This document shows positions 2,501-29,928 of a stretch of DNA of 32,596 bases, piece by piece (within the stretch, counting starts at the first letter, position 1; each line of letters begins with the position of its first letter). The notes below the pieces were generated by a model. That model was not told where the DNA came from, made no database searches, and saw only the letters and a program-made list of their open reading frames with translations. Source of the stretch: a virus; the IMG/VR virus record IMGVR_UViG_3300022937_000080, positions 1-32,596 of that record, one strand, 5' to 3'. Position numbers and translations under genes: made by a program.

Positions 2501-2529
2501 ATTGTAATGGATGTTTTGATATTTGTCAA
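2501..2529 (-). promoter_or_regulatory. Sigma70-like promoter for gp47-gp46
   Basis: On the minus strand a perfect -35 TTGACA (2529-2524) is followed after 17 nt by TACAAT (2506-2501), five of six matches to the -10 consensus. The -35 overlaps the gp55 stop codon. The expected start of transcription, about 2494, leaves a leader of only about 10 nt that begins within the gp47 Shine-Dalgarno, which is unusually short. The match is read directly from the sequence; activity is inferred. Confidence 0.6.
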
Positions 2530-9256: not shown

Positions 9257-9697
9257 ATGAGCAACAAACTATACAATCAAACAAAGGTTGCTGTTAACAA
9301 AGCATCAGTCGGAGATAAGGGAACAAGTTCTTTTACATACAAAGGATTTAGTTCTTCTGAATCAGCGAAAGGATTTAAACTGTATGATCTCGACCTAGTC
9401 AAACAGGACATTATCAATCATTTCTATATTAGAAAGGGTGAAAAGTTAGAAAATCCTGAGTTTGGAACGATTATTTGGGACATGATATTTGAACAGTTTA
9501 CTGAAGAAGTTAAAACCATGATAAGCAAGGATGTGGAAACCATAATAAACTACGATCCTAGGATTGCGGTAAACAGTGTCCAGGTAGATAGCACTGAACA
9601 GGGCATGAGAATTCAAGCAGATATAGTATACATTCCTTTCAATGTTAATGAAAGAATGACCTTTGACTTTGACAGAAATAACTCGGTTATAAAGTAA
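9257..9697 (+). CDS. gp25: Baseplate wedge subunit gp25
   Basis: 146-aa member of the GPW/gp25 family, an inner wedge component that in T4 initiates sheath assembly. Family pattern: YDLDLVKQDIINHFYIRKGE, LENPEFGTIIWDMIFEQF, then a C-terminal strand pair ending NERMTFDFDR. Length is close to T4 gp25 (132 aa). A strong GGAGGAG (9246-9252) overlaps the gp5 stop and lies 4 nt before the ATG. It is followed by a 42-nt gap holding a late-promoter-like site. Confidence 0.92.
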   Translation: MSNKLYNQTKVAVNKASVGDKGTSSFTYKGFSSSESAKGFKLYDLDLVKQDIINHFYIRKGEKLENPEFGTIIWDMIFEQFTEEVKTMISKDVETIINYDPRIAVNSVQVDSTEQGMRIQADIVYIPFNVNERMTFDFDRNNSVIK

Positions 9698-12700: not shown

Positions 12701-13138
12701 ATTAAAACAATCAGCGATGAAATAATTTATCATCCTGTCAAGTATAAAGTTTTGTTTGGTAGCACGGCCGTTGAAAAACTACAGGCACAGTTTAAGGTTG
12801 TTAAGAATCCTAATAAAACATTAAACGATAATAATCTAAAGGTAAGAATTGTAAATGCCATAAACGAATTTTTCGCTATAAACAATTGGGACTTTGGAGA
12901 TAGATTTTATCTAAGTGAATTAACAACATATGTGATAAACTCTGTATCTCCGGATATTACTAATTTTGTTATTTTACCAAGACAACAATCTCAAGCATTT
13001 GGAAGCCTGTTTGAAATTCAAAGCAAACCGGATGAAATTTTTGTTAGTGGCGCCACAGTCGATGATATAGAAATAGTGGCAAGCATTACCGCTGCTGAAA
13101 TCAAGGCTGGTTCAAGTTCAGTAGTGAGTAATACATAA
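9740..13138 (+). CDS. gp6: Baseplate wedge subunit gp6, enlarged
   Basis: 1132 aa, against 660 aa for T4 gp6. gp6 dimers form the ring that joins neighbouring wedges. The N-terminus has the gp6 pattern: LNEDWKRIYQTFKNADFKSY, NYPEDFNDYIESSEYLALID, ENFIELAEKKESVLRIARML and SYNAKR. Central strands with RRNAPAQYYTQNRMVTGEDY (around residues 415-435) match the Baseplate_J/gp6 core, and the C-terminus has the gp6/J-like ending with INEFFAINNWDFGDRFYLSE. An extra region of several hundred residues (roughly 480-960) accounts for the size increase and contains an acidic DxDxDGxxDxxD motif at 818-829. The stop codon overlaps the next start as TAATG. Confidence 0.88.
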   Translation: MSTTDRQTNLILNEDWKRIYQTFKNADFKSYDFENLRRVIITYLRENYPEDFNDYIESSEYLALIDAVAFLGQSLSFRIDLASRENFIELAEKKESVLRIARMLSYNAKRNIAAQGLLKFTSVSTTESITDSNGRDLSQQTVRWNDPSNSNWAEQFILILNTAMSDNTEFGRSQGSATIQGIPTEQYRFRTTTTDVPLYTFSKSVAGRSMSFELVSTSFKDAEEIYEEAPTPGNQLGFVYRQDGQGAGSANTGFYLMFKQGSLELADFTIQTPTTNETVAVESQNINNDDVWLFKLNSLGAQQEQWTQVSTLTGNNIAYNSLIGNIKNIYSVATKQNDTVDLVFADGVYGNLPQGSFRTYYRVSNGLNYVIAPNEMKGISINVSYTNKAGVAHTLTIGMGLQYSVTSASATESVDTIRRNAPAQYYTQNRMVTGEDYNLAPLSSSQNILKVKAINRTSSGVSRNFDIIDASGKYSSVNVFADDGYIYKEEGEKTLNFKFTNRTDIINFIRNSVEPVFNSTDVYNFYLTKFPNILFSERNTLWEAVTNDINIGTGYFTNATDSSLLKVGTYTTNSLKYLSVGANIKFEAPEGYAFKKGLLVTIDANDVEQTSYLWTRVVKISGDGTNAGRGTLSSGLGPITFNDNIPTGAIATEIVPKFINDLNSSLESAMVNQLVANQNFGLRYDNTTSEWKIIQTQNLDLTGAFSLGKAGDITNENLDASWVMAFVKDNDQYVVRIRKLDYVFGSIEQNRFYFDKNEKAYNNLTGELVKDKVRVLGINSESNGSSELKKDFDFEISDTILFDDGYESTKEIKLAFSDSDSDGVVDDPDSFKRIVGEDLDLNYLFFEETKDEYGTTIYTLIENAEDTILIKQKESLVNVNDYDDGQLIYFYDSAENRVKRVDRTTNTLVLESKYRANIGRKNIKFQYTHAASEDRRIDPSVTNIVDLYILTKSYDNSYRNYLAGATTEPDAPTTDSLRVDFGSSLNSIKTISDEIIYHPVKYKVLFGSTAVEKLQAQFKVVKNPNKTLNDNNLKVRIVNAINEFFAINNWDFGDRFYLSELTTYVINSVSPDITNFVILPRQQSQAFGSLFEIQSKPDEIFVSGATVDDIEIVASITAAEIKAGSSSVVSNT

Positions 13139-16100
13139 TGGCAGATAAAGTTTACCCTAACAGTCAACTACCGATTAGAAAAAGTGAAAACTTTTTACCT
13201 AAGACGTTTCAAACAGATACAAACTCAAAGTTTTTATCTGGCGTAGTTGATCCTCTTATACAGCCTGGATCGCTTGATAAACTAAGTGGATATGTTGGTA
13301 AGAGATATGGAAAAACATACAAGGGATCTGATGTATATTTAGATACTGATGAGACTCTACGCAGCAGATATCAACTGGAACCGGGAGTAACGGTTGAGCA
13401 AGATCAAAAAATTGAAAAGTTCTATGACTATTTAGATTTTAGAAACATTTTAAATTATTTTGGTAACGCCAGCGAAAGAGACGACAAGATAACATACCAG
13501 GAACACTACAGTTGGAATCCTCCAATTGACTGGGACAAGTTTGTAAACTATAGAGAATATTATTGGGTTCCAGCAGGACCTCCTTCTATTCCGGTTTATG
13601 GACAAACAAAGGATGTTGTTAGCACCTATAAGGTAAACCAAGGACCTTTATCAACATGGGTATTAACACCAGATGGAGTTAGCAGCAATCCAACAATTAC
13701 TCTGTATAGAGGTCAAAAATATATTTTTGAAGTAAACAGCCCCAAGGAAGGTTTTACTCTTAGAACAAATTATGATACTGGATCTTTAATTTATGATCCG
13801 TTGAAAACATATGCGGTAGGAGATCTTGCTGTTTATGATAATAAATTATGGCGTGCAAAAAACGAAGTCATTGCAGGCGACGGTTCGACAATAGATTTAG
13901 AAACACAGGATTGGGAACTGGTTGATGACAATGCAACTTCTCAATCATTAAACTATAATGATGGAGTTACGAACAACGGAGTAGAAGTAGGAACACTTAC
14001 TTTTGAAGTTCCTTTAAATGCACCGGATGCTATATTCTACCAGAGTTCGCTCGATCCTAATAGATTAGGAAGATTTGTAATCGCAGACATTGATTCAAAC
14101 ACCTATATAGATGTTGAAAAAGAAATTATAGGTAAGCAACAGTATAAGAGTGCTAACGGAATAGAACTTTCCAATGGCATGGTGCTAGAATTTAGAGGTG
14201 AAGTTGAACCATCAAAGTATGCTACTGATACGTGGTTAGTTGAGGGCGTTGGAAAAGAAATACATCTAATTAGATTTGCTGATTTGGTTCCACCTATTGT
14301 AACTTCTGATGTTCCTGAAATATTATTTGATAACGAAGGATTTGACACACAACCTTTTGATGATGCAAGCCAATATCCTGCAATAAAAGATTATGTCACA
14401 ATTAACAGAAGCAGCAAGGATTCGAATCCATGGAGTAGATATAACCGTTGGTTCCATAGAAGTGTTTTAGAAAATGCTTATCAACTTAGAGATGAAGATT
14501 TTGATTCTATAGAAACTGCAAGAGCAAAGCGTCCTATTATAGAATTCCATCCTAATATTAAGTTGTTTGATCACGGAGCAACAGCCAAGACAACTGTTGA
14601 CTATGTTGACGATTATACAACGGATATTTTTTCAACAATAGAAGGAAGCACGGGATACAGCATTGACGGTGAATTCCTGTTCCAAGGCGCTAGAGTCTTG
14701 GTAACGGCAGATACAGACGGCTTAACAAACAATAAAATTTATGTGGTGAATTTTATTAATCAAAATGGTCGCAGACAAATTAACCTAAGAGAAGCAGACG
14801 ATGCTGAAAGTATAATTGGCGAATGCGTTCTGGTTCGTAGAGGAACTGCGAATGCCGGCAAGATGTATGACTACGATGGAAATAGTTGGAAACGCAGCCA
14901 AGAAAAAACAACAGTCAATCAAGAACCTCTCTTTGATGTTTTCGATGACAACGGAATTTCTTTCGCTGATGCTGACACATATCCTGTAAGCACATTTGTT
15001 GGTTCTAAAATAATAAGTTATAAGAAAGGTAACAGTGTTGTTGATTCCGAACTAGGATTTAGTCTTTCATACCTAAACATAGATAATGTTGGAGACATTT
15101 TATTCAATTGGAACCTTGATGTGGATTCCTTTGTCTATACCGTGAATAGACAGGAACTAACCAAAAATATAAACACAGGTTACATTAAAATTAATGGAGA
15201 CCTGGATAACGGTTGGAAACAAACTGAAAGAGATTTCCTACAACCTATTATTGATAGTGCAAAAATTCAAACCGAATCTAATTCAGTCACACTAACATCT
15301 GTAGACTGGAGCAAATTACCAGACGAGCATAGCATTGTTGTTTATGTAAACTCTGAGAAAACTGAAAGTTACACAAGAGATGCTGGAACGTTTACGTTTG
15401 ATAACACTTTAGCAGTTGATGATATTGTAACCGTTAAAATTGTAGCAGATGTCAATCCTAATACTGGATATTACGAAATTCCAGTTGGACTTGAAAAGAA
15501 TCCTTTAAACGAAAACCTAAATGAGTTTACACTAGGTGAAGCATTGGATCATGTTAAGAGCGGTTTAGAATTTGATACTAGATTTACAGGCAATCTTCCT
15601 GGAAGATCCAATCTAAGAGATTTATCAAATTTCCAAGAACACAGCAAGAGATTTTTAAAACACAGTGGTATCAGTGCAAGTGCTTTGTCTATTCTTGTAG
15701 ACAAAGAATATAATATTATTAAAGCATTACAATTTGCTAAAAAACAATATACAATCTTTAAAGATAATTTTCTAAAGAAAGCAATTGAAATTGAATTCGA
15801 AGGTAACACTGCAAATTTTGTAGATAAGATAATTGAGGATCTAACAAAAACCAAGAGCATTAATAGTCCGTTTGCTGATTCTGATATGATTGGTAGTGGA
15901 GCATTTACTGAGATTACTTATAATGTTGAAGATCCAGGCATCAAGACGTTTACACTAAATGAAAAATTTGATTTAGAAACTCTTAGCAGAAAAGCAGTTT
16001 ATATCTATTTAAATGATACACAATTGCTTGCAGGAAGAGATTATGAGTTTGATTCAACGTTTGGTTATGTAACAATTAACGCTAGTTTAGTTGAAGGAGA

Positions 16101-19100
16101 TGTTTTATCGATTAGAGAATATGTTTCCACATCGTTCAGCCATATACCACCGACACCTACGTCATTAGGATTATACAAGAAATATACTCCTATGAAATTT
16201 ATGGATGATACCTATAGAGAGACACAGGAAGTTATTCAAGGACACGATGGTAGCATTATAATTGCCTATGGCGACTTTAGAGATGATTTATTATTAGAAC
16301 TTGAATACAGAATCTATAATAACATCAAGAACGAATATGATCATGAAGTATTTGACATTGATAATAGTCTAGGTGGATATTATGGTAATGCATTGTTTAC
16401 AAAAGAAGAATTTGATAGCGTTACCAATCAAGAATTTTTAAGATGGGTAGCAAACACAAACCTTTCATACACTCTTAACGAATACTTTGTTGATGGCGAA
16501 CCATTTACATATACCTATTCGCAAATGGCAGATCCAACCAAGTCTGAAAATTTACCAGGATGGTGGAGAGGAGTTTATAAGTATTTTTACGATACAGATA
16601 GACCACATCGCTGTCCATGGGAAATGCTTGGGTTTAGTGAAAAGCCTACGTGGTGGGAAGAAGAATATGGTCCAGCACCATATACTAGCGGTAACTTAAT
16701 TTTATGGGAAGACATCAGAGATGGTTATGTGAGAGGAGGTCCAAATCCAGGACCGGTCAAACGATATGCAAGGTCTTCAATACTAAACCATATACCGGTT
16801 GATTGTGACGGAAATCTTTTAAGTCCATTGGATAGTGGTATTGCTACAAACTTTACCCTTATAAACAATAAGGGAAGTTTTAAACTTGGCGATGTATCAC
16901 CTGCTGAATATGCCTATAGATCAAGCAGCGAGTTTCCTTTTGTTACAACAATTGCTCTTTGTTTATTAAGACCATTTGAATTTATAATTGCCAACTTTGA
17001 TAAGGCAAAAACAAAACGTAATGCAGTCAATCAAATAGTTGATAATGTTACGAATAATTTCTTAAGAACAACTGACTTAAAATTACCAGTTGCCGGAGAA
17101 ACATTAACTAGCGGTTTAGGATTTTATCTTTCAGCACTTTCAAAATCATCAGGAAAGACAGTTTCCGATGCACAGGCAATGTTGGATAATATAAATGTTA
17201 AATTATCAAACAGGCTATCTGGATTCGTTGATAAGGAACAGCAAAAATATTTACTAGATTCCAAGAACCCTAGTTCTTCGAGTAGCAGTATTTTTATTCC
17301 TAGCGAAAACTTTGATATCATCTTTAATGTAAGTGCTCCTATTCTCAGCATTGCATACAGTGGCGTAATATTTGAAAAGTCTGAAGGCGGCTGGGTAGTA
17401 AATGGATATGATGATGTAAATCCTTACTTTAACTATTTCAATGCCATTCCTAATCAAAAGGATCCTGTCATTAGCGTTGGCGGTGTCAGTGAAACTTTTG
17501 TAGTCTGGAGTGCCAACCAAAGATATAATAATGGCTCCATAATTGAATATAGAAATGATTATTATAGAGCAACTTCAACACACACTAGTGATACAACTTT
17601 TGATAAAAGTTATTGGCAAAAACTACCTCAACTGCCGGTTAAGAATGCGGTTGAAGCACAGAGAAGAAGAAACTTTAACAAAACATCTATCAGACAAATA
17701 AGTTACGGAACCAAGTTAACCAGCGTTCAGGATGTTGTAGATTTCTTGTTAGGTTATCAGGCTTATCTTGAAGCACTTGGATTTAAATTTGAAAACTACA
17801 ATAGAGAAAATCAAGTAGTCCAGGATTGGGTAACAGCAAGTAAAGAATTTATGTTCTGGACAAGACAGAACTGGGCAGTAGGATCATTGATTACACTGAG
17901 TCCTGGTGCGGAAAAATTAACCGTGACAACACCTGTCGGTGTTGTTGATAATCTGCTTAATAGTTTTTATGAATATAACATTCTTAAGGATAATGGTGAA
18001 CCATTAGATCCTAAGAATATTGATGTAACTAGAGATTTCCAAACATTTACTATTAACACAGTTAACACGACACAGGGCATATATTATCTTAAGATGAATT
18101 ATGTTCTGAAAGAACATGTAACGGTGTTTGATGACAGAACAGTTTTCAATGATGTTATCTTTGACAAGAAAACAGGTTATAGACAAGAAAGAATTAAAAG
18201 TATAGGGTTTAGAACAGTAGACTGGGATGGAGATTATACAAGTCCGGGTTTCTTGTTTGATAATGTAAACATAGCATCATGGCAGCCTTATAAGGATTAT
18301 AGACTTGGTGATATTGTTTCCTATAAATCATACAATTATACAAGCATTAAGAATCATACCAGCGGACAGGAATTTAATAATGACAGTTGGACATTACTAG
18401 ATTCCACACCCGAAAAACAATTAATTCCTAACTATGATTATAGAATTAATCAGATGGAAGATTACTTTGATGTTATGTCGCAGGGTCTTGGACAGAGTCA
18501 AAGAGAACTAGCAAGACACACCATTGGATATCAAACAAGAGAATATCTACAGAATCTAGCAGAAGATGATACAACACAATTTAGATTGTATCAGGGATTT
18601 GTTAGAGAAAAAGGAACATCAAATTCTATCGTCAAGTTATTTGGCAAGGTTGGGCGTTCAAGAAATCAAAGCGTAGAATTAAAAGAAGAATGGGCGTTTA
18701 AACTGGGCGAGTTTGGCGGAAGTGATCAGTCTAAGAATATTGAATTAAATTTAAAAACTGATGAATTTGAATTGAATCCTCAGCCCATACTTGTGGTATC
18801 AGATAAACAGGGCGATTATCTTGATAGATACTACAGACTAGATCAAGCAGATTTTAATTTTGCTCCTATTCCTTATACGACTGCTATTAATAAAGTTTCT
18901 TATGATAGTCTTCCTGTCAAGACAGCAGGATATGTCAAGATAGGACAAACAGAGCATACTGTTAAAACTAGAGACGACATCCTTAATATTAACATAGATG
19001 ATTTTTCCAATAATGATCATGTATGGATTACTTTTGACAATCAGTCATGGACAGTATTAAGAGGAAATTATTATTATGATCTTCCTATAGTCCATGCAGA

Positions 19101-22100
19101 ATCAGATGGAACAACAGTAACAATTACATTTAATAAAAGACACAACCTATCAGTTGATGATATAATTGGTGTTAACATTGATGGTATAAAAGGATTCCAT
19201 AAGGTTACTTCTATAATTTCAGGAACTGGAGACGGTAGTTCTTATAGCAGAGAGTTTGGTTTACAGTTTGAAGTTGATGAAGCACCCAATCTTGAATTTG
19301 AATCAAGTAGTTTAACATATCCTATGCTTTTCACAACAGCGAGATTTGATGATTATAATTCAATGGATGTGGAAAAAGTTGCACTTCTTGAAAAAGGATC
19401 AAAACTCTTTGTTGATAAAAATAATGATCAGCAATGGGAAGTTGTTGAAAAGAAAAAACAGTATGATCCAAAATTAATAGAATCGTTTGGAGTCTCTGTT
19501 CCTTCAAGAACTGGTTATAAAGTTTTATATGCTTCTGCACAAAAACAAAGCATTGTTTCAATACCAGGAAGCGAAAGAGTAGTTTGTTACTTTGAAACAA
19601 ATACCGGGTTGTCAACAAAACAAATACTAGAACCACTCAGTGGGTTTGTTGATTTTGTAAAAGGAACATTTGGTGAGGAACTTGCACTAAGTCCTGATAA
19701 CAAGTGGTTGGCAATTGGTTCACCTCGTGCAAGCGGAATCACAAGTAATTACAAAGGAACATTCCAGCCTAATGCAAATTATGCGGCTAATGATATTGTG
19801 TTGTATGCCGGAACTTTATGGAAAGCAAACAAATCAATAGTGGGAGATGGAAGCACGATAAATGTTTACTCTGAAGATTGGGTTGAAGTTAATAACATAG
19901 AAGCACTGGAAACTGGATCAAGTGATGGCTTTGAAGAGCAGGGAATGATCGATTTGTATGAATACTCTGCTCAACAGTGGAACTATCATGGAAGTTTTGT
20001 AAGTCCAAGACCAGACTCTGATAAATTGTTTGGTTCCAAGATTGCATTGGCACTAGATGGAACAAAATACAGCATGGTGGTTACATCACCAGGAACGAAT
20101 AATAACAAGGGCAGAGCATACATCTATGAATATGATTCCACAACACTTGAATGGAATCTAATAAACAATAACAATTTCAGAGGAGTCTACGAGCCAGGCG
20201 GTATGATTGATGCCGTTGACATACTTGTTGGTAGAACCTACACAATAAGTTATGTTGGAACAACCAACTTCATGGAAATGGGTGCAAACTCAAATACAAT
20301 AGGAATTGAATTTGTAGCAACTGAATCAGGATCGGGTGATGGTGTTGTTACACAGAATACATTCTATCCCAAAGGAAGTGTTGTATACCATGAAGGTTAT
20401 TTGTGGGAAGCATTGGCAGATAATGCGGGCGATGGAAGTTCAATAACACTGGAATCAAATGACTGGATTAGATTAGACGAAATCAATACATCATCAAGCC
20501 TACCACAGAGCGTTGCATTGGTTGACGACGGTTCCACCCTAGCAGGCGGAATTTTAAGTCCAACACAACTTGCTGAATTAATAAGTGAGGGTGATAAGTT
20601 CGGTGGCTCACTGGCAATGGATTATACGGGTAACACTTTAATTATAGGTGCATCGGAAGCAGACGGACAATACTTCTCGAACTACAGAGGTTTGTGGCAA
20701 GCAAACTTTGAGTATTCAGCAGGCGATACAGTAAAATTTGAGGATGGTTATTATCAGTTGGTCAATGAAGGCGATGATGCAGTTGCTGATGGTAGCACAC
20801 TTAGAAGTTATAACCAAAGACCGGAAAATGGTCTTCCTTGGATTAGCGTTGGAGATAGTTCTTCAGATGCTGTTGGAAAAGTTTTTGTTTATCAGAAGAA
20901 TGATAGCGGAATATACAAATTAATACAAACAATTACTACAGAATCTCTACAAGAGTTTAATGATATCGGCACAGCCGAAGCAATTAGTAGCGGTGATTTA
21001 TTTGGTTATGCTCTAGACATAGATTATGCAGGAAACACTTTGGTCGTAACCAGTCCAAAAGCAGATAAAAACTTCCAGAATCAAGGAAGTGCCTATGTGT
21101 TTAAGTTTGAATCGGATTCCACATTCACAGGATTTAGACTAAAACAAAAGATAGAAAGTTATGCTAGGTATCCAAACGAATACTTTGGTCAGAGCATTTG
21201 TATTTCAGATGATACCAGTAGAATAGTTGTAGGTGCTAGTAACAGTCCTTACTCTCTGCCAATTAGATTTGATGGATCTCAAACACAATTTGATCAAGGA
21301 AGCACTTCATTCAAGACACTGGATGGATATTCAGGTGCAGTTTATGTGTTTGAAAGAAAACAGGATAGATACTTCCTTGCTGAAAAATTAGAAGATGATC
21401 TATCACTGAACGAATCGTTCGGACACAGCATTTCTTGCACATCGGATCTTGTATTGGTGGGTTCACCTAATTACATAACTCCTGCTCCTCACAACGAAAC
21501 ACTTGCTTATGACGGAGACAAAACTGGTATGGCTAGACTGTTCAAGAAACAGACAGGCATAAACAGTTTAGAAAGAATAGGAATTCAACCACAGACAGTG
21601 GACATTGAAAATATCAAGAGAATTGCACTGTATGATAAGGGCAGTGATGTAAAAATTCAAGATATTGAAATGGTTGATCCTGCCAAGATGAAAATCTTAG
21701 CATCTGCGGAAAGAAATATTTCCTTTAAGACTCCGTATGATCCTGCCGTGTATACACTAGGAACGGAAGATGTTGTTGTTGACGATTCAATTGCTTGGTA
21801 TAAAAAGAATGTAGGAAAACTTTGGTGGAACCTTTCAACAGCCAAGTGGATTAATTATGAACAGGGAGATACATCCTACAGATCAGCAAACTGGGGTAGA
21901 CAGGCAGAAGGTTCAAGCATAGATGTTTACGAATGGGTTGAATCAAAATTATTACCTAGCGAATGGGCATCGGTTGCAGATACTAACGAAGGACTCAGAT
22001 TAGGAATTTCAGGACAACCTTTATATCCTGATGATACTGTATACTCGGAAAAACAACTTTTAAATGTTAACACTGGCGAAGTTACAGAAACATTATACTA

Positions 22101-25100
22101 CTATTGGGTAGTTGGAAAGACGACCGTTCCTAGCAATGTGTTAGGAAGAACAGTTTCAGCAGCAGAAGTTGCAACAACAATTAGTGATCCAAGTTCGGTT
22201 GGAAATACATTTGTTGCTCTTGCTGATAGCAACAAAATTATTTTTTACAATTATAGAAATATTGTTTCTTCGGATGAAACAATACTTAATATTGAATATT
22301 ATACAAACTCTGCCGCCAAGAATGCAATACACAATGAATATCAGTTGTTAACCGAAGGTGTTGCTGATAGTGTTCCTGCGGATAAACTTGAAAGAAAATG
22401 GATTGACAGTTTGGTAGGGTATGATAAGGAAGGTAATAGAGTTCCTGATCCTAACTTACCTGATAAACAAAAATATGGTATTTCGTTTAGACCTAAACAG
22501 AGCATGTTTGAAAATAGAAAACAGATACTCGGTCAATCAATCCAACACGTAAATGAAATATTAATCAAGGAACCGTTTGCAGATTTTATAAACTTTGAAT
22601 ATTTAAATCTGCTAGATGAACAGCCTGATGAAAGTCTATATCTTTATGACGTGAAGGTTACAAATTATATCGATCTAGAAACAGTAGGAACGGTTAGAGT
22701 TAAGAAAGCAGAACTTACACCAAACATCATTGATAATGAAATAAGTTCAATTAATATTGTTGATCCTGGTTTTGGTTATAGACCACAACAATTGTTCAAT
22801 CAAGAAGTTGCTGGAGTATATCAAGGACCAAGCGTTACAATCGATGGTGACGGTGTTGGTGCAGAAGCAGTTACACACATCGACGGCCAAGGAAGAATAG
22901 TTGCTGTTGTGGTTACAAACCCGGGTGAAAAATACACCTATGCAAATGTAACTGTAAGAAACTTCAGCGTGTTGGTAGAAACTGATTCCACAGCAAATAA
23001 CTATTGGTCAATATATGCCTGGGATGATGTAAGAAAAACATTCTTTAGAAGTGCTTCACAAGGATTTGATACTACCAAATATTGGTCATACGATGATTGG
23101 TGGAAAGAAGGTTATTCAAATACTTCAAGAATAATTACTGAAATATTAGAAGTATCACAAGAACCTACGCTTACAGTAGAAGTTGGTGACCTAATTAGAA
23201 TCAAGGAATACGGCGCAGGTGGCTGGGCAGTCTTTGAAAAAACTAGCGATACATCAACAGTTCTTCTTGACAATTATCAACTAGTTGGTAGACAGAATGG
23301 AACAATTCAATTATCCGAAACACTTTATAATATTAATGTTTCGGGTGTAGGATTTGATAATTTACAATCTTTCGATACAGGATTATATGATTTAGAACCC
23401 ACACAGGAATTAAGAAATATATTAAAAGCAGTTAAGGAAAATATTTTCATCGGTGATTATCAAGTCGAATGGAACAAATTATTCTTTAGTTCTGTAAGAT
23501 ATGTATTCCACGAACAGGCATATGTGGATTGGGCTTTCAAGACCAGTTTCCTAAATGCAACACACAATGTTGGTGAACTGGAGCAACCTGTAAACTATAG
23601 AAATGATAATCTTGATAGTTATAACAGTTACATAGATGAAGTAAAACCTTACAGAACAACGGTAAGAGAATACGTAAGCAGATATAACAAACAAGACACC
23701 AATGGTGCTGCAACAACTGACTTTGATTTACCGAGTGTATATTCGCAAGAACAAGGAAAGATAGTTACAGTAAATGAACAGAGCACAGAAATAACTTCTT
23801 ATCCTTACAAGTGGTGGCTGGATAACAAAGGATATTCCATTGTAGATATTGACATAGCAGACGGTGGTGCAGACTACACAAGTCCGCCTAGCGTTGTTAT
23901 TGAAGGTAATGGAACCGGAGCAAAAGCACAGGCTTATATTTCGAGCGGCAAGGTAGTAGGAATAACTGTTACTAACAAAGGACAAGGTTATACAATCACT
24001 CCTACAATTTCTTTGGTAGGTGGTAATGGTAGTTCAACCAGCAAGGCTAGAGCAGTTGCAATACTAGGTGATAGCAAAGCAAGAACAATTCAAGTTGGTG
24101 TTAAATTTGATAGAATAAACAAAGAAGGACTGTATCAAAACTTTGATGATAGCCAAACATTTACGGCATCTGGTTCTTCTTCCGTGTTTGATTTAAAATA
24201 TGCTCCGACTAGAGATAAAAACAAAATTTCAATTAAGAAAAACGGTCAATTGGTTTTAGGCAGTGAATACAGTATTTCCTTGTATAGATCAACTGTCGAC
24301 ACCTTTGCTTTATTAAAAGGCAAGATAGTGTTTGAACAGGCTCCTGCCTTGGGAGATGTCATTGAAATAACATATGAAAAGAATGACGAGTTATTTGATA
24401 GTGTTAACAGAATTAGCAAATACTACAGTCCTACCAGTGGAATGAAAGGAACTGATCTTGATCAGTTAATGACAGGTATAGATTATGGTGGTGTTCAGAT
24501 CCAAGGAACAACTTTTGACGTAACAGGAGGCTGGGATGCCCTACCATGGTTTACTGATAGTTGGGATAGCGTAGAAGCGAGTTCGGATTATTACCATGTG
24601 TGTGACGGAAGCACAAACTTTGTTACATTACCTTATACTCCGGCAGATGGACAGGAAATTAACATTTATCTAAAGAGAGCAGGCGAAGCAATTCTACCAA
24701 GCATTGATGACCTACAATATTCAGACCAGGTTGCAGATCCTCCTATCATAAGAATTGATGATCCATATTTCCTTGCAGGAAACGATTCATCAACGTCCGC
24801 AAATCCAAATGCAGAAATGCCTACATTCTATGGAGACGGTAGCACAAATTCTGTTGAAATAGGTCAGTATATTACAACCAATCCTGGAGATATATTAGTA
24901 TTCAGACCTGTCGAGAGCGATGGTGCTGTAACAATTACTGATCCTAATATTGTTGATACTAACCTAAGTGGTGGAACGCTGTCAGCAATGGACGGTGCGT
25001 ATGCTACTGCCACTGGTATAACAGCAGAAGAAATTAAAATTGAAGGCGGAAGATTTATTGGACCAGAAGAAGTTCCTGCACCAGAAGAAAATATTCCAGG

Positions 25101-27108
25101 ACAGATACTTGATGGATTAAGCATAAAGGTATTCCAATCAACCACTAGTGGTGCTGCACCAGTTCAATCTCGTGTATTCAAGACTGATGGAAGCACAACT
25201 ACTTTTGATATAGGTCAGAAAATTTATGAAACTAAATCCACAATAGTTTATGTTGACGGGTTGAAAAAAGAACTTGACACGGATTATACTGTTAGCGTAA
25301 AAGATAGCACGGTAACATTTTTAACTGAACCTGTTGTTGACAGTGTGGTTGAAATAATTTCAATCGGCATTGGCGGTATTGCAATACTTGATTATCAAGA
25401 ATTTATTGCCGACGGTGATACTAATCTTTTCTTAACAAATGCAAATTATAATGATACAACAAATGTGTTTACGACCATTGATGGAATAGAAACAGATTCT
25501 GTGTTTACCAATAGCACGGGAGTGGTTGATACAGTCGGAAGATCATTGGTGCAGTTTGGTGCAACACCTAGTGCTAATTCTGTAATCAAAATAATCGCAC
25601 TTGGCGCATCAACTGATGTTGATTCTAGTTTGCTTTCATTGGTAAGAGTAAACAATCAAACAATAATACATGATGGTAGCACTCGCAGTTATGATCTTGA
25701 TAACTTTGTTTCGTTAGAAAGAGAAAGTGCAATATCCAGCATGGTAGTTGACGTTAATGGAACTAAACTGATCGGTGTTGACACGGTGTATGCAGTGTAT
25801 GACGGAACAACAAAAGATTTTACTCTTGGTGTTGATCCGGAAGAAGCACCAGGCGCAATCCTATCTGCAAATATTAGCGTTTTCATTAACGGTGAAAGAA
25901 AAACATTTATTTCTGATTATGTTTATAACGGAACAACAAAAGTATTGACCATTGAAGCGGATCTAACAGTAGGTGATACTATTAAGATTGAAAATAATCT
26001 AAGAAGCGAATATTCAATTGTCGGAGGTAACCTAGTAATAGATTCCGCAGTTACACTTAATCCAGGCGATGAGATAAACGTTGTATGGTTAAGTGAATAT
26101 CCTTCAATGCAGATGGTAACTGACAGAGAAACAGGTGGCAAGGTAGTTTATGAATTACCATTCATTCCGCTTTCGGTCAGTTATGTTTGGGTATACAAAA
26201 ATGGCATCAAGCAAATTCAGGATGTGGATTATTACATCTCATTACCAAGGGGTGTTATCTATCTCAACGAGGATACTACAGAATCTGATACAATTACCAT
26301 AGTAACATTTGGATCGTCTATATTTAGATTACCTAGCGCCTTTGAAATTAACAAGGACATGCTAAACGTTTATAGATACAATAGATATTCTAGATCAGCA
26401 GAAGTTACATTGGCTAATGCATTAAATTACTATGACACAGAAATTACGGTTACTGATGCAAGCGATTTATTCCAACCAATTTCTAGTAGAAACATACCAG
26501 GCGCTATTATAATTAACAGCGAAAGAATAGAATACATGCAGAAGAATGGCAATGTTCTTAGCCAACTAAGAAGAGGAGTTCATGGAACTGCAATCAAGGA
26601 AGTTCACTCTGCGGGATCTAGTGTGATTAATATTGGTCCTGAGGAAAATTTACCTTATGCTGAGGAGCAACAAAGAACAGATTTTGTTAGCGATGGCAGT
26701 AGTTTGCTTATAGGACCATTGGAATTTACTCCTACGCAGAACACTTCATCTACATGGTCAGCAACAACCATTCCAGCAGAATATGGTAGATGCGATACTA
26801 TTGAAGTATTTGTTGCAGGACGCAGATTAAGAAAAACACCATTAACTGTGTTTGATGAAACTTTAGGGCCTACCAGTCCTAGCGGAGATAAGGAAATTGA
26901 AGCAGAATTTTCAGTGGATGGAGTGAATCCATACGTAAGATTAACAACACCAGTGTCTGCAGGCACACGTATAACGGTTATTAAGCGTGTTGGCCAAACA
27001 TGGTATGATAAAGGAGAAACAACGGTAACTACAGGTGCTACTTTGCTTGAAAATGCTACGCCAATTAGCAAGTTCATTGCTGCAAAGACAACTGGTTTAC
27101 CTGAATAA
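13138..27108 (+). CDS. Giant multidomain baseplate/virion protein in the gp7 position, 4656 aa
   Basis: Single uninterrupted frame of 13,971 nt, product about 0.5 MDa. It follows gp6 exactly where T4 has gp7 (1032 aa), suggesting a wedge role, but I see no clear gp7 motif. Order by residue: N-terminal 1-150 (FLPKTFQTDTNSKFLSGVVD, YREYYWVPAGPP); CBM-like repeat at 219; beta-hairpin modules around 740-990; Trp/Tyr-rich block 1142-1239; further CBM-like repeats at 1454 and 1712; a helical segment at 1766-1840 (GYQTREYLQNLAEDDT); interrupted FG-GAP-like propeller 2178-2808; paired Gly-rich repeats at 3205 and 3569; repeated beta-modules 3675-4400; end module with QLRRGVHGTA near 4485. No signal peptide, membrane segment or enzyme motif. 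There is no Shine-Dalgarno; the start overlaps the gp6 stop (TAATG), so translation is probably coupled. Gene assignment is certain, function inferred. Confidence 0.85.
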   Translation: MADKVYPNSQLPIRKSENFLPKTFQTDTNSKFLSGVVDPLIQPGSLDKLSGYVGKRYGKTYKGSDVYLDTDETLRSRYQLEPGVTVEQDQKIEKFYDYLDFRNILNYFGNASERDDKITYQEHYSWNPPIDWDKFVNYREYYWVPAGPPSIPVYGQTKDVVSTYKVNQGPLSTWVLTPDGVSSNPTITLYRGQKYIFEVNSPKEGFTLRTNYDTGSLIYDPLKTYAVGDLAVYDNKLWRAKNEVIAGDGSTIDLETQDWELVDDNATSQSLNYNDGVTNNGVEVGTLTFEVPLNAPDAIFYQSSLDPNRLGRFVIADIDSNTYIDVEKEIIGKQQYKSANGIELSNGMVLEFRGEVEPSKYATDTWLVEGVGKEIHLIRFADLVPPIVTSDVPEILFDNEGFDTQPFDDASQYPAIKDYVTINRSSKDSNPWSRYNRWFHRSVLENAYQLRDEDFDSIETARAKRPIIEFHPNIKLFDHGATAKTTVDYVDDYTTDIFSTIEGSTGYSIDGEFLFQGARVLVTADTDGLTNNKIYVVNFINQNGRRQINLREADDAESIIGECVLVRRGTANAGKMYDYDGNSWKRSQEKTTVNQEPLFDVFDDNGISFADADTYPVSTFVGSKIISYKKGNSVVDSELGFSLSYLNIDNVGDILFNWNLDVDSFVYTVNRQELTKNINTGYIKINGDLDNGWKQTERDFLQPIIDSAKIQTESNSVTLTSVDWSKLPDEHSIVVYVNSEKTESYTRDAGTFTFDNTLAVDDIVTVKIVADVNPNTGYYEIPVGLEKNPLNENLNEFTLGEALDHVKSGLEFDTRFTGNLPGRSNLRDLSNFQEHSKRFLKHSGISASALSILVDKEYNIIKALQFAKKQYTIFKDNFLKKAIEIEFEGNTANFVDKIIEDLTKTKSINSPFADSDMIGSGAFTEITYNVEDPGIKTFTLNEKFDLETLSRKAVYIYLNDTQLLAGRDYEFDSTFGYVTINASLVEGDVLSIREYVSTSFSHIPPTPTSLGLYKKYTPMKFMDDTYRETQEVIQGHDGSIIIAYGDFRDDLLLELEYRIYNNIKNEYDHEVFDIDNSLGGYYGNALFTKEEFDSVTNQEFLRWVANTNLSYTLNEYFVDGEPFTYTYSQMADPTKSENLPGWWRGVYKYFYDTDRPHRCPWEMLGFSEKPTWWEEEYGPAPYTSGNLILWEDIRDGYVRGGPNPGPVKRYARSSILNHIPVDCDGNLLSPLDSGIATNFTLINNKGSFKLGDVSPAEYAYRSSSEFPFVTTIALCLLRPFEFIIANFDKAKTKRNAVNQIVDNVTNNFLRTTDLKLPVAGETLTSGLGFYLSALSKSSGKTVSDAQAMLDNINVKLSNRLSGFVDKEQQKYLLDSKNPSSSSSSIFIPSENFDIIFNVSAPILSIAYSGVIFEKSEGGWVVNGYDDVNPYFNYFNAIPNQKDPVISVGGVSETFVVWSANQRYNNGSIIEYRNDYYRATSTHTSDTTFDKSYWQKLPQLPVKNAVEAQRRRNFNKTSIRQISYGTKLTSVQDVVDFLLGYQAYLEALGFKFENYNRENQVVQDWVTASKEFMFWTRQNWAVGSLITLSPGAEKLTVTTPVGVVDNLLNSFYEYNILKDNGEPLDPKNIDVTRDFQTFTINTVNTTQGIYYLKMNYVLKEHVTVFDDRTVFNDVIFDKKTGYRQERIKSIGFRTVDWDGDYTSPGFLFDNVNIASWQPYKDYRLGDIVSYKSYNYTSIKNHTSGQEFNNDSWTLLDSTPEKQLIPNYDYRINQMEDYFDVMSQGLGQSQRELARHTIGYQTREYLQNLAEDDTTQFRLYQGFVREKGTSNSIVKLFGKVGRSRNQSVELKEEWAFKLGEFGGSDQSKNIELNLKTDEFELNPQPILVVSDKQGDYLDRYYRLDQADFNFAPIPYTTAINKVSYDSLPVKTAGYVKIGQTEHTVKTRDDILNINIDDFSNNDHVWITFDNQSWTVLRGNYYYDLPIVHAESDGTTVTITFNKRHNLSVDDIIGVNIDGIKGFHKVTSIISGTGDGSSYSREFGLQFEVDEAPNLEFESSSLTYPMLFTTARFDDYNSMDVEKVALLEKGSKLFVDKNNDQQWEVVEKKKQYDPKLIESFGVSVPSRTGYKVLYASAQKQSIVSIPGSERVVCYFETNTGLSTKQILEPLSGFVDFVKGTFGEELALSPDNKWLAIGSPRASGITSNYKGTFQPNANYAANDIVLYAGTLWKANKSIVGDGSTINVYSEDWVEVNNIEALETGSSDGFEEQGMIDLYEYSAQQWNYHGSFVSPRPDSDKLFGSKIALALDGTKYSMVVTSPGTNNNKGRAYIYEYDSTTLEWNLINNNNFRGVYEPGGMIDAVDILVGRTYTISYVGTTNFMEMGANSNTIGIEFVATESGSGDGVVTQNTFYPKGSVVYHEGYLWEALADNAGDGSSITLESNDWIRLDEINTSSSLPQSVALVDDGSTLAGGILSPTQLAELISEGDKFGGSLAMDYTGNTLIIGASEADGQYFSNYRGLWQANFEYSAGDTVKFEDGYYQLVNEGDDAVADGSTLRSYNQRPENGLPWISVGDSSSDAVGKVFVYQKNDSGIYKLIQTITTESLQEFNDIGTAEAISSGDLFGYALDIDYAGNTLVVTSPKADKNFQNQGSAYVFKFESDSTFTGFRLKQKIESYARYPNEYFGQSICISDDTSRIVVGASNSPYSLPIRFDGSQTQFDQGSTSFKTLDGYSGAVYVFERKQDRYFLAEKLEDDLSLNESFGHSISCTSDLVLVGSPNYITPAPHNETLAYDGDKTGMARLFKKQTGINSLERIGIQPQTVDIENIKRIALYDKGSDVKIQDIEMVDPAKMKILASAERNISFKTPYDPAVYTLGTEDVVVDDSIAWYKKNVGKLWWNLSTAKWINYEQGDTSYRSANWGRQAEGSSIDVYEWVESKLLPSEWASVADTNEGLRLGISGQPLYPDDTVYSEKQLLNVNTGEVTETLYYYWVVGKTTVPSNVLGRTVSAAEVATTISDPSSVGNTFVALADSNKIIFYNYRNIVSSDETILNIEYYTNSAAKNAIHNEYQLLTEGVADSVPADKLERKWIDSLVGYDKEGNRVPDPNLPDKQKYGISFRPKQSMFENRKQILGQSIQHVNEILIKEPFADFINFEYLNLLDEQPDESLYLYDVKVTNYIDLETVGTVRVKKAELTPNIIDNEISSINIVDPGFGYRPQQLFNQEVAGVYQGPSVTIDGDGVGAEAVTHIDGQGRIVAVVVTNPGEKYTYANVTVRNFSVLVETDSTANNYWSIYAWDDVRKTFFRSASQGFDTTKYWSYDDWWKEGYSNTSRIITEILEVSQEPTLTVEVGDLIRIKEYGAGGWAVFEKTSDTSTVLLDNYQLVGRQNGTIQLSETLYNINVSGVGFDNLQSFDTGLYDLEPTQELRNILKAVKENIFIGDYQVEWNKLFFSSVRYVFHEQAYVDWAFKTSFLNATHNVGELEQPVNYRNDNLDSYNSYIDEVKPYRTTVREYVSRYNKQDTNGAATTDFDLPSVYSQEQGKIVTVNEQSTEITSYPYKWWLDNKGYSIVDIDIADGGADYTSPPSVVIEGNGTGAKAQAYISSGKVVGITVTNKGQGYTITPTISLVGGNGSSTSKARAVAILGDSKARTIQVGVKFDRINKEGLYQNFDDSQTFTASGSSSVFDLKYAPTRDKNKISIKKNGQLVLGSEYSISLYRSTVDTFALLKGKIVFEQAPALGDVIEITYEKNDELFDSVNRISKYYSPTSGMKGTDLDQLMTGIDYGGVQIQGTTFDVTGGWDALPWFTDSWDSVEASSDYYHVCDGSTNFVTLPYTPADGQEINIYLKRAGEAILPSIDDLQYSDQVADPPIIRIDDPYFLAGNDSSTSANPNAEMPTFYGDGSTNSVEIGQYITTNPGDILVFRPVESDGAVTITDPNIVDTNLSGGTLSAMDGAYATATGITAEEIKIEGGRFIGPEEVPAPEENIPGQILDGLSIKVFQSTTSGAAPVQSRVFKTDGSTTTFDIGQKIYETKSTIVYVDGLKKELDTDYTVSVKDSTVTFLTEPVVDSVVEIISIGIGGIAILDYQEFIADGDTNLFLTNANYNDTTNVFTTIDGIETDSVFTNSTGVVDTVGRSLVQFGATPSANSVIKIIALGASTDVDSSLLSLVRVNNQTIIHDGSTRSYDLDNFVSLERESAISSMVVDVNGTKLIGVDTVYAVYDGTTKDFTLGVDPEEAPGAILSANISVFINGERKTFISDYVYNGTTKVLTIEADLTVGDTIKIENNLRSEYSIVGGNLVIDSAVTLNPGDEINVVWLSEYPSMQMVTDRETGGKVVYELPFIPLSVSYVWVYKNGIKQIQDVDYYISLPRGVIYLNEDTTESDTITIVTFGSSIFRLPSAFEINKDMLNVYRYNRYSRSAEVTLANALNYYDTEITVTDASDLFQPISSRNIPGAIIINSERIEYMQKNGNVLSQLRRGVHGTAIKEVHSAGSSVINIGPEENLPYAEEQQRTDFVSDGSSLLIGPLEFTPTQNTSSTWSATTIPAEYGRCDTIEVFVAGRRLRKTPLTVFDETLGPTSPSGDKEIEAEFSVDGVNPYVRLTTPVSAGTRITVIKRVGQTWYDKGETTVTTGATLLENATPISKFIAAKTTGLPE
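13792..20854 (+). repeat. Six scattered carbohydrate-binding-module-like repeats in the giant protein
   Basis: Copies of about 40-55 residues share the pattern aromatic-x(4)-Y-x(2)-GDxVxYxxxLWxA, a GDGST turn, then xxDWxxL/V. They begin near residues 219 (KTYAVGDLAVYDNKLWRAK), 1454 (QRYNNGSIIEYRNDYYRA), 1712 (KDYRLGDIVSYKSYNYTS), 2205 (ANYAANDIVLYAGTLWKA), 2407 (YPKGSVVYHEGYLWEA) and 2516 (FEYSAGDTVKFEDGYYQL). The layout resembles CBM5/12 chitin-binding-like modules, which commonly occur in phage tail proteins. Binding is not shown. The copies differ at DNA level, so the duplications are old. Confidence 0.65.
16561..16854 (+). other. Trp/Tyr-rich block of the giant protein
   Basis: Residues about 1142-1239 are dense in aromatics, Pro, Gly and Cys: WWRGVYKYFYDTDRPHRCPW, EMLGFSEKPTWWEEEYGPAP and LILWEDIRDG. 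The composition is very unlike the flanking beta-repeat regions and suggests a compact, specifically folded module. I do not recognise the family. Confidence 0.45.
19669..21560 (+). other. FG-GAP-like beta-propeller segment of the giant protein, with inserts
   Basis: Six repeats with the pattern FG-x-S/A-(I/L)-x-(5-8)-L-x-V/I-x-A/S-S/P appear at residues 2178 (FGEELALSPDNKWLAIGSPR), 2297 (FGSKIALALDG), 2487 (KFGGSLAMDYTGNTLIIGAS), 2622 (FGYALDIDYAGNTLVVTSPK), 2683 (FGQSICISDDTSRIVVGAS) and 2761 (FGHSISCTSDLVLVGSP). Most are followed by a G(S/R)AY(V/I)(F/Y)-type strand, as in integrin-alpha FG-GAP propellers. Three CBM-like repeats (2205, 2407, 2516) and a VGRTYTI..VGTTNF module (2355-2404) interrupt the blades. 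Confidence 0.65.
22750..24069 (+). repeat. Two Gly-rich tandem-type repeats in the giant protein
   Basis: Residues about 3205-3280 and 3569-3644 share one plan: IxDxGxxY near the start, a PSVxIxGxGxGAxA segment (PSVTIDGDGVGAEA; PSVVIEGNGTGAKA), then IVAVVVTNPGEKYT or VVGITVTNKGQGYT. They are separated by about 290 residues that contain a segment with PVNYRNDNLDSYNSYIDEVK. The function of this repeat type is unknown to me. Confidence 0.6.
24157..26330 (+). repeat. Array of beta-hairpin repeat modules near the C-terminus of the giant protein
   Basis: Repeated units of about 70-100 residues share DG(S/T)T-x-x-(F/Y)-x-(L/I) at the start, then V-Y/F-V/I-(D/N)G, a D/S-Y-x-(V/Y) strand, and a final GD-x-I/V-x-I. 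Examples: FKTDGSTTTFDIG then TIVYVDGLKKELDTDYTVSV; IIHDGSTRSYDLDNF then VVDVNGTKLIGVD; YDGTTKDFTLGVD then ISVFINGERKTFISDYVY; and VWVYKNGIKQIQDVDYYISL. Similar single units occur earlier, near residues 740-990. The pattern fits Ig-like or jelly-roll structural repeats of tail proteins. Confidence 0.55.
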
Positions 27109-27111: not shown

Positions 27112-27136
27112 CACTATGAAAACCGAAGAGAAAAAT

Positions 27137-27733
27137 ATGCCAAACGATAAAGATAATCTAGATTCGAACAAGCCTGCCGTTAACGAAACGGGTGGGTTTC
27201 ATTTTGAAGGACATATTAAGATTTTTGATCCACAAAATGGAGAAGTTTTTGTGGACAAGCGTAATGCAATTCACTACGAAAATATGAGTGTTGCAATGGT
27301 TAACAGCCTTTCAAACCAAGGGCTAGGAACCATATATGAAATGGCACTAGGAAGCGGTGGAACTACCGTAGATCCTACAGGCTTAATTACATATCTAACA
27401 CCAAACACTGTGGGAATAAACAGCAGTCTTTACAATCAAACTTACACAAAGGTAGTTGATCAAAATGCTGTTACGAATACTGATCCTACTAGAAATAAAA
27501 TGGAAATTAGGCATGTCAGCGGTGCAACCTATAGTGATATTGTTGTAAGTTGTTTGCTTGATTATGGTGAACCGGACGGTCAAGAAGCATTTGATAATAG
27601 CGTAAATCTAGATGGCAATTTTGTTTTTGACGAGTTGGGATTAAAATCATATGATCCTAACGGCAGTGGTAAGTTATTAACTCATGTAATTTTCACCCAG
27701 TTCAAAAATCTCTTAATAGGCTACTACAGATAG
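27137..27733 (+). CDS. Conserved structural protein between giant wedge gene and tail fibres, 198 aa
   Basis: I recognise this as a type found beside tail-fibre genes in marine T4-like phages, but know no assigned function. Landmarks: GHIKIFDPQNGEVFVDKRNA, then NAIHYENMSVAMVNSLSNQG, EMALGSGGTTVDPTG, DPTRNKMEIRHVSGATY and FDELGLKSYDPNG. It is globular, with no membrane or signal segment. Start choice: the frame is open further upstream and has ATGs at 27035 and 27116, but ATG 27137 has GAAGAG 6 nt upstream, whereas 27116 has none and 27035 lies inside the giant gene. Ends with TAG. A fibre adaptor or wedge accessory is a reasonable guess from position. Confidence 0.72.
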   Translation: MPNDKDNLDSNKPAVNETGGFHFEGHIKIFDPQNGEVFVDKRNAIHYENMSVAMVNSLSNQGLGTIYEMALGSGGTTVDPTGLITYLTPNTVGINSSLYNQTYTKVVDQNAVTNTDPTRNKMEIRHVSGATYSDIVVSCLLDYGEPDGQEAFDNSVNLDGNFVFDELGLKSYDPNGSGKLLTHVIFTQFKNLLIGYYR

Positions 27734-27783: not shown

Positions 27784-29928
27784 ATGCCATATATTGTAAA
27801 TTTTACAGACAAAGAAAATAAAAGTCCAATTACGGTTTTCGATAATACTTCTAGCCAGGACACAAGTTTAACATTTCCTGGACGTAATGTTACAGGATAT
27901 GGACAAATTATTGCAGAAAACTTTTTATCGCTGCTAGAAAATTTTGCATCAGCAACACAACCAGTCAATCCAGTCGAAGGACAGTTATGGTATGATACGA
28001 CCAATGGAGTATTACAACTTTTTGATAATACAAACTGGAAGGCAGCATCTAACATACAAAAATCTCCGACTGAACCTAGTGTTGAGGATTCGAAGGTCGG
28101 CGAATTATGGGTTGATACAACAAATCAACAATTAAGAATTTATACAGGAACTAGATGGTTATTGGTAGGACCTACTGAAAGTGCTATCGATGGTTTAAGA
28201 TATGGTCCAGCAGTTGAAAAGATTATTGATCAGGATAACCTTGATAAAAATGTTTTAATTTTATACATTGCAGACCAACCAGTTGTAATTGTATCCAAGG
28301 ATACATTTACTCCTAAGATTAATATTACAGGTTTTGAAAGAATACAATCTGGTATCAATGTAGCAACTCCAGCAAACGATGACGAAGCATTAGAGTTTGC
28401 AAGCATCTTCTTAGGAGGCAACCTACCTAAACTAATAGGAACTGCAAAGAATGCTGATGCACTTAATGTCGGCGGTGTTGAAGTTTCAGCAGGAAAGTTT
28501 CTTAGAAGTGATAAACTTAACACAACTGAGTTTGGTTTAAACGTAAGAAATAATTCGGGTATGATAATTGGAATAGATGGAAACTTCCAATTAACAACTT
28601 CTTCCACAGCAGCAAAAGTTTATAACTCAGCAGCAGGTAGTTCATTAGATTTACAAATTAATAGAAATGGTGTTCCAAGCACCATTCTAAGAGTGTTGGA
28701 CGATAGAGTAGGTATTAATGTTGCTGCTCCTGATGCAGAATTAGATGTTGATGGAGACATACAGTTATCAGGAACACTTTTAGTAAACAACACAAATGAA
28801 TCAATTAACCTTTCAACGGGAAGTTTACAGACCGCAGGCGGTGTGGCAATTAACAAAAACCTTAAGATAGGAACCACACTTGATGTTTCAGGATTAACAA
28901 CTCTTACAAATGCTGTTCCTTTGGGCAGTGATACATATGATTTAGGAACCACTTCAAGAAGATGGAATAGTGTTATAGCGAAGAAAGTTATAGCAGATGA
29001 AATCGAAGGAACAATTTCTGGTAACATTACGGGTAATGCTAACACGGCAACAAACCTAAAGAATGTAACAAGTTTTTCAATGTCAGGAGACGTTGTTGCT
29101 CCGGCTATACAATTTGATGGACAGGTAGGTAGTTATTCAAAAGTATTTTCTACTTCACTTACCGCTAACATTATTAAGAGTAAGTCTCAACCAACGCCCA
29201 ACGTATCTGCAAAAGAAGATCAAATATTGGTATATAGACCATCAGCAGAAGCAGGTGGCTCATCAGGATTATTAAAACAGGATAGAAATACATTTGTTGG
29301 AGACCTAGGAGTTCCAATCGGCGGTATTATACCTTATGCAGGTTCAACTGCACCTTATGGTTATCTACTTTGCGATGGCGGTGAAGTTGAAATAGCAAAA
29401 TTCCAAACATTATACGATGTCATTGGAACAACATATAATGGTAGTGCTGCACTGAATGGTTCAGGAACGTTTAGAGTTCCAGATCTAAGAGGTAGATTTG
29501 CACTAGGTAAGCACAACATGGACAACAATATTAACGTGCCAAATGCGTTAGGTGGATTTGTAGATAACGGTGGCGGCACACCTAGTCCTGCAAGAGTAGA
29601 AGGAACTGAACCTGAAACTTTAGCAGCATCGAGTGGTAGCAGCAAGGTTTCATTAACACTTTCTAACTTGCCTGATCACAGCCACACTTTACAGGCTGAT
29701 GGACAGCAGTTCTATGTTACTAGAAATGACACGGCACCAACAGTTTCTTCAATTCCAGGTAGAGGACCAAATAACCCAGGCGAATCACAGTATTTGTCAG
29801 ACAGTGGACCAGTTAAGAAGCCAACAGGCGTTACTCTTGGATCTGCTGTTGGTATTATGAATCCATACTTAACATTAAATTATATAATTAGATCTGGACC
29901 ACCAGCATTTGAAACGATAGGAACATAA
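27784..29928 (+). CDS. Tail fibre protein with phage tail collar domain (gp12-like end), fibre paralogue 1
   Basis: 714 aa; Shine-Dalgarno GAGG at 27772-27775. The N-terminal about 200 residues are shared with the next two genes and contain two short W/Y repeats (GQLWYDTT at 66 and GELWVDTT at 106, each followed by a threonine- and aromatic-rich xxIYTGTRW-type strand). The middle has LGSDTYDLGTTSRRWNSV, a pattern common in fibre shafts. Residues about 506-600 are a tail collar domain (PIGGIIPYAG, APYGYLLCDGG, FRVPDLRGRFALG). Near the end LPDHSHTL holds an HxH pair (H632, H634), like the metal-binding motif of T4 short-fibre tips. The collar domain suggests a host-binding short fibre, occupying the gp12 place. 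Confidence 0.85.
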   Translation: MPYIVNFTDKENKSPITVFDNTSSQDTSLTFPGRNVTGYGQIIAENFLSLLENFASATQPVNPVEGQLWYDTTNGVLQLFDNTNWKAASNIQKSPTEPSVEDSKVGELWVDTTNQQLRIYTGTRWLLVGPTESAIDGLRYGPAVEKIIDQDNLDKNVLILYIADQPVVIVSKDTFTPKINITGFERIQSGINVATPANDDEALEFASIFLGGNLPKLIGTAKNADALNVGGVEVSAGKFLRSDKLNTTEFGLNVRNNSGMIIGIDGNFQLTTSSTAAKVYNSAAGSSLDLQINRNGVPSTILRVLDDRVGINVAAPDAELDVDGDIQLSGTLLVNNTNESINLSTGSLQTAGGVAINKNLKIGTTLDVSGLTTLTNAVPLGSDTYDLGTTSRRWNSVIAKKVIADEIEGTISGNITGNANTATNLKNVTSFSMSGDVVAPAIQFDGQVGSYSKVFSTSLTANIIKSKSQPTPNVSAKEDQILVYRPSAEAGGSSGLLKQDRNTFVGDLGVPIGGIIPYAGSTAPYGYLLCDGGEVEIAKFQTLYDVIGTTYNGSAALNGSGTFRVPDLRGRFALGKHNMDNNINVPNALGGFVDNGGGTPSPARVEGTEPETLAASSGSSKVSLTLSNLPDHSHTLQADGQQFYVTRNDTAPTVSSIPGRGPNNPGESQYLSDSGPVKKPTGVTLGSAVGIMNPYLTLNYIIRSGPPAFETIGT

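Follow-up and report, generated by a model that had tools for sequence, protein, structure and literature searches.

A giant protein of the jumbo-phage family PHROG 10938 at the position of gp7 in the baseplate operon of an environmental virus

In bacteriophage T4 the gene for gp7, a wedge protein of 1032 amino acids, sits between gp6 and the fibre genes. We have studied a linear IMG/VR fragment of 32.6 kb (the window, 32,596 nucleotides) where the same place is held by a single open frame of 4656 codons. What is this giant protein, and does it take the role of gp7, alone or together with that of other wedge proteins? The frame runs on the plus strand from ATG to TGA without any break, and its product has a calculated mass of 520 kDa. 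At the base composition of the window such an unbroken run would arise by chance with a probability of about 10^-160. The ATG overlaps the final base of the gp6 frame; the order of the operon is gp53-like, gp5, gp25, gp6 and giant, with a large virion protein also encoded upstream, between the gene in the gp53 position and gp5. The main features are collected in Table 1.

Table 1. Features of the window and of the giant protein; positions are those of the window, residues (aa) those of the giant
Feature	Position	Strand	Evidence
Small baseplate wedge subunit, gp53 position	4607..4906	+	phrog_7145
gp5-like baseplate hub	7534..9255	+	Profile matches
gp25-like baseplate wedge subunit	9257..9697	+	Profile and PF04965
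gp6-like baseplate wedge subunit, 1132 aa	9740..13138	+	phrog_10646 E=5e-296; T4 gp6 family phrog_219 E=4e-23
Giant virion protein, PHROG 10938 family, 4656 aa, 520 kDa	13138..27108	+	E=0, 1015.6 bits
Conserved N-terminal core, aa 1-143, kept in every relative, 121Q and GAP32 among them	13138..13566	+	Alignment
CBM5/12-like module 1 (not in 121Q or GAP32), aa 219-264	13792..13929	+	Pfam E=0.005 alone
Conserved core, aa 418-921	14389..15900	+	Alignment
Beta module, aa 937-994	15946..16119	+	Internal comparison
Conserved core, aa 996-1461, most conserved stretch PWEMLGFSxKPTWW	16123..17520	+	Alignment; within AlphaFold2 model
CBM5/12-like module 2, aa 1457-1499	17506..17634	+	Pfam E=9e-6
Conserved core, aa 1519-1707	17692..18258	+	Alignment
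CBM5/12-like module 3, aa 1715-1756	18280..18405	+	Pfam E=7e-7, above curated cut-off; Foldseek chitin-binding matches
Helical segment, aa 1766-1838, with LYQGFVREKGTSNSIVKLF	18433..18651	+	Model; likeness to gp7 KG[TIS] by eye only
FG-GAP repeat region, aa ~2178-2779	19669..21474	+	Pfam FG-GAP_2 E=1.4e-22 on 19549-21507
CBM5/12-like module 4, aa 2208-2254, between FG-GAP repeats	19759..19899	+	Internal comparison, Pfam signal
CBM5/12-like module 5, aa 2406-2449, between FG-GAP repeats	20353..20484	+	Internal comparison only
Conserved core, aa 2832-3844, including FKTSF motif region	21631..24669	+	Alignment; AlphaFold2 model
GxGY module 1, aa 3201-3280, source of the gp8-family (phrog_438) match	22738..22977	+	Profile match
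GxGY module 2, aa 3567-3633	23836..24036	+	Profile match
Conserved 205-aa protein directly after the giant	27116..27733	+	phrog_11259
Fibre or collar protein, T4 gp12-like	27784..29928	+	Pfam Collar E=5.5e-19; T4 gp12 profile match, 84% probability

The giant is not unique: by its sequence it is a further member of a family of jumbo-phage virion proteins which has already been catalogued. In a profile search it matches PHROG 10938, "virion structural protein", in four stretches; PHROG files this family under head and packaging. By tblastn, 86 phage records contain relatives, and among those listed almost every genome exceeds 280 kb; in IMG/VR at least 572 stretches encode relatives. The cultured members are those of PA5oct (gp355, 3857 aa), GAP32 (GAP32_230, 3341 aa), CBB (CBB_236, 3340 aa), 121Q (121Q_582, 3323 aa), Atu_ph07 (gp180, 4449 aa) and RaK2: they have in common with our giant the family and the place after gp6. 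The 121Q-type phage Sharanji (OR545507), recorded on E. coli K-12 MG1655, is a further member. Four of them were aligned and are 24-32% identical to it. The giant in the window differs from the cultured members by its greater length (4656 as compared with 3323-4449 aa), by its five CBM5/12-like modules, where 0-1 have been detected in them, and by a larger number of FG-GAP repeats. Full-length homologues in IMG/VR have about 4.4-5.5 kaa and come from dozens of independent contigs, so that the giant size is not an accident of assembly. The single frame of 4656 residues described in the first-pass annotation is thereby confirmed. An artefact due to a fused or misassembled frame might be suspected, as the window is carried by a single contig and one relative (L021, 3708-17365) has the gene divided, through sequencing error or gene fission, between two frames which overlap (3127 and 1435 codons), but it is already refuted by the presence of the same unbroken frame in dozens of independent contigs and in several cultured phages.

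The position of the giant is equally constant. A gp6-like frame adjoins it in 149 of the 149 distinct loci which have enough upstream sequence, as had been proposed for the window, where the giant starts on the last base of gp6. The order gp25-gp6-giant is kept in PA5oct, GAP32 and CBB; 121Q has a gp25-like gene, gp6 and the giant with an inserted HNH gene, and in Atu_ph07 gp6 is followed by the giant. Mass spectrometry of CBB virions detected the giant of this phage by 21 unique peptides, which cover 7.7% of it (PMC5259590, Table 4), and the gp6 homologue CBB_237 is present in the same virion preparation (PMC5259590). The PA5oct record flags both giant gp355 and its gp6 as ESI-MS/MS. Presence in the virion is shown for these two homologues, of CBB and PA5oct. 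The gene order upholds the placement of the giant at the gp7 position of a baseplate operon. It is a real, well-conserved protein of this operon and belongs to a known family.

Contractile machines join two gp6-type proteins with one gp7-type protein, so that some protein should fill the place of gp7 here. Scaffolds of the (gp6)2-gp7 type recur in T4, in XM1 and in T6SS (PMC10457771, PMC6300606). The gp7-type protein which holds two gp6-type proteins together in the wedge can be small: that of XM1, gp17, has 242 residues (PMC10457771). In T6SS, TssF and TssG are combined in the same ratio (PMC6300606). We have compared the giant with gp7 in several ways, and no sequence or fold relation with T4 gp7 was detected in the parts tested. 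The gp7 profiles of T4, cyanophages and Melnitz give no significant match with the giant, and the gp7 profile phrog_964 gives no match. The Pfam domains Gp7_helical, Gp7_5th and Gp7_6th are not found in it; here the search with a lenient threshold covered aa 740-1900. Finer tiles gave nothing convincing with the gp7 core, with a combined core of the gp7 superfamily or with an N-terminal helix profile: the top score of the combined core profile has 37% probability and falls in a beta-rich stretch, aa 4404-4480 (26347-26577). At aa 1818-1834 there is a sequence predicted to be helical, LYQGFVREKGTSNSIVKLF, which by eye is like FYSTKGIEASYKFLF in T4 and FYSAKGTSFSIAYLF in P-SSM4; its scores are those of the background. 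When a gp7 model centred on KG[TIS] was run over the giants with hmmsearch, the best matches took in a KGT or KGS site in 50 of 130, with the same scores as reversed sequences.

Two regions were modelled with AlphaFold2: aa 740-1900 (mba588f74502e) with pLDDT 86 and pTM 0.77, and aa 2815-3700 (m0a8065be262c) with pLDDT 82 and pTM 0.51. No T4 gp7-like fold appears in them. Neither model has a match in the PDB at E<=0.001 with Foldseek, nor any likeness to another large solved protein, in searches which used whole models, where small local likenesses can stay hidden. The strong matches in a search against viral models are the giant family itself, for example Atu_ph07. Among the small-domain Foldseek matches of the aa 740-1900 model chitin-binding domains are prominent (1ed7, 1.8 A over 45 columns), in agreement with Pfam. 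The whole giant has no match among the PDB sequences.

A separate gp7 was also looked for: neither four complete genomes of jumbo phages nor the long IMG/VR relatives contain a usable match to T4 gp7, PF23786 or Tail_P2_I. The T4 profiles are weak in the lineage of the giant, since that of gp6 misses gp6 in two long relatives which carry a gp6-like frame; a gp7 which is not recognised could therefore be encoded elsewhere. From its position, the virion presence of its homologues and the lack of any other recognised candidate, rather than from homology, the giant is most likely the counterpart of gp7.

We consider it rather probable that the giant is a structural baseplate protein of PHROG 10938 which replaces T4 gp7 in the wedge and has been lengthened by inserted modules. 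Its conserved core would dock on gp6, by analogy with the (gp6)2-gp7 scaffold, where gp7, XM1 gp17 and TssG dock on proteins of the gp6 type. The inserted CBM5/12-like, FG-GAP, GxGY and beta modules would project outward and may help to contact surface glycans or to hold fibres; a large share of the extra length over the shortest relatives would come from the insertion of such modules. Should the giant indeed take the place of gp7, the wedge in a large group of T4-related environmental phages is built from a different and much larger protein. It would be a wedge protein which has grown through insertion of glycan-binding modules, with host recognition tied to the baseplate scaffold.

The modules are well apparent in the sequence. 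For the whole giant PF02839 reaches 45.4 bits, over a curated cut-off of 26.2, and module 3 alone has 29.7 bits. Taken singly, four of the five CBM5/12-like modules still give a signal in Pfam, which in one case exceeds the cut-off, while module 5 alone has no match with Pfam. They are predicted sugar-binding modules. The FG-GAP repeat region is probably a beta-propeller and is largely absent from 121Q and GAP32. The beta module recurs at aa 3680-3744, 4016-4077, 4240-4286 and 4344-4392. Segments of at least 25 residues which are absent from both GAP32 and 121Q are found at aa 144-417, 922-995 and 1462-1518; further segments absent from both are aa 1708-1757, ~2013-2831 and 3845-3904. They contain the five CBM5/12-like modules, the FG-GAP region and one beta module, so that a good part of the length is explained by insertion. 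The agreement, though good, is incomplete: most of aa 2013-2170 is free of named modules, as is a part of aa 144-417, and in 52 homologues the length of the giant is not correlated with how many CBM and FG-GAP repeats it has (Spearman 0.16, p=0.27). Judged from these comparisons, module insertion accounts for much of the length over the shortest members, not for all the length variation in the family.

The sugar-binding and fibre-type modules, together with the lack of homology to any gp7, could also be those of a peripheral adhesin, a whisker or a fibre-network protein encoded behind gp6; a smaller virion protein which has not been recognised would then be gp7. These phages have many virion proteins to which no function has been assigned (PMC6102473). 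We find this unlikely: the giant is invariably adjacent to gp6, it has a long conserved core with many invariant residues, and no candidate gp7 was recognised elsewhere in the four complete genomes.

The other alternative, put forward in the first-pass annotation, is that the giant has absorbed neighbouring wedge functions: gp7 would be fused with gp8, perhaps also with gp10 and gp11, and one chain would do the work of several T4 proteins. The core would unite these functions and carry built-in sugar-binding modules, a wedge arm made of one protein, with host contact and the trigger of contraction in a single polypeptide. We judge it improbable. The genomic context is in its favour. No gp8-gp11 genes are found between gp6 and the collar gene, and within the 32.6-kb window T4 gp8 and gp11 are not recognisable; to this extent the earlier observation stands, with the reservation that the absence of a gene proves little in a window which is only a linear fragment. 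Nor is a separate gp7 or gp8 recognised in several long relatives or in the four jumbo-phage genomes which are complete; this holds with T4 gp8, and cyanophage gp8 finds no gp8 in giant-bearing genomes outside the GxGY stretch. The masses also agree. In a T4 wedge gp7 is present once, gp8 twice and gp9, gp10 and gp11 three times each; together they weigh about 558 kDa, close to the 520 kDa of the giant. This agreement fails for the minimal relatives, which have 3.3 kaa.

The sequence of the giant itself speaks against absorption. Its 500-residue tiles give no significant match with the T4 profiles of gp7, gp8, gp9, gp10 and gp11. Against a set which comprises T4 gp6-gp11 and, from cyanophages, gp7, gp8 and structural proteins, the tiles match through the GxGY module only. 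The best score of gp10 has 24% probability (aa 4226-4320); gp9 and gp11 give no match, with profiles of limited sensitivity built from two sequences each. The cyanophage gp8 family phrog_438 matches at aa 3168-3280 and further on, in positions 163-277 of the profile, whereas T4 gp8 matches the same profile at positions 3-86, 139-185 and 441-478. As the profile positions differ, the matches correspond essentially to a module inside cyanophage gp8 which is absent from T4 gp8. Moreover, gp9/gp10-like domains are found on separate genes in relatives: in a long one, G005, a frame of 2458 aa distinct from the giant carries an N-terminal domain of the gp9/gp10 type (E=1.7e-8, above the curated cut-off), and PA5oct has a gp10 C-terminal-like protein on a separate gene. 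Absorption of gp8-gp11 is not supported by these comparisons. Two annotations suggested by profile matches were rejected: phrog_438 as an absorbed gp8, since the GxGY module is absent from T4 gp8 and recurs in many other proteins, and phrog_460 as a head-closure protein.

Giant proteins behind gp6 are also found in cyanophages. P-SSM4 has an annotated gp7 of 7312 codons (57144-79082), S-CREM1 one of 5422 codons, ACG-2014f one of 4225 aa and S-SSM7 one of 3007 aa. These Kyanoviridae proteins are like the giant in the window by their place directly behind gp6 and by their GxGY modules, but they carry a T4 gp7-like KG[TIS] core which is detected by hmmsearch. Profile comparisons show no core homology between them and our giant: only the GxGY modules match. 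We count 13 of these modules in the part of P-SSM4 gp7 which was read (L257) and 16 in that of S-CREM1 (L258), and the module is also present in several other proteins of the same cyanophage genomes. ACG-2014f keeps a separate gp8, so that gigantism behind gp6 does not need absorption of gp8. Replacement of gp7 by a protein unlike that of T4 has been proposed before: in pelagimyophages and cyanomyophages T4 gp7 is absent and seems replaced by VrlC, according to a 2020 study (PMC7029224). If the giant in the window fills the gp7 role, gigantism at the gp7 locus is found both in jumbo phages and in cyanophages, two lineages with giants in which a mobile module is the only common element detected. 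The points worth keeping are the modular growth of the giant and this mobile module which it shares with the cyanophage giants.

The surroundings of the giant have features of their own. The gp6-like protein is enlarged too (1132 aa compared with 660 in T4), and the T4 family matches only parts of it. As for the small wedge subunit in the gp53 position, the CBB paper names CBB_242 gp53 (PMC5259590). After the giant comes the 205-aa protein, then the collar-domain gene. The 205-aa protein has 130 related frames in the fetched loci, its PA5oct homologue is flagged ESI-MS/MS, and a comparison with T4 gp6-gp11 gives no match. After the collar-domain gene there are two further fibre-type frames (29930-31825 and 31844-32596), the last one cut by the end of the window. 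A domain of some 90 residues (phrog_15511, phrog_14394) recurs at the N-terminus of all three frames, where it may serve as a shared anchor. At the other end, two frames of virion proteins lie between the late sigma gene and gp5 (4908-7520 and 3448-4605; phrog_11190, phrog_12050). Beside the baseplate operon, the minus strand of positions 2-3362 encodes gp46/gp47-like (SbcC/SbcD) proteins and a gp55-like late sigma factor, and the same set is found beside the baseplate operon of PA5oct and GAP32.
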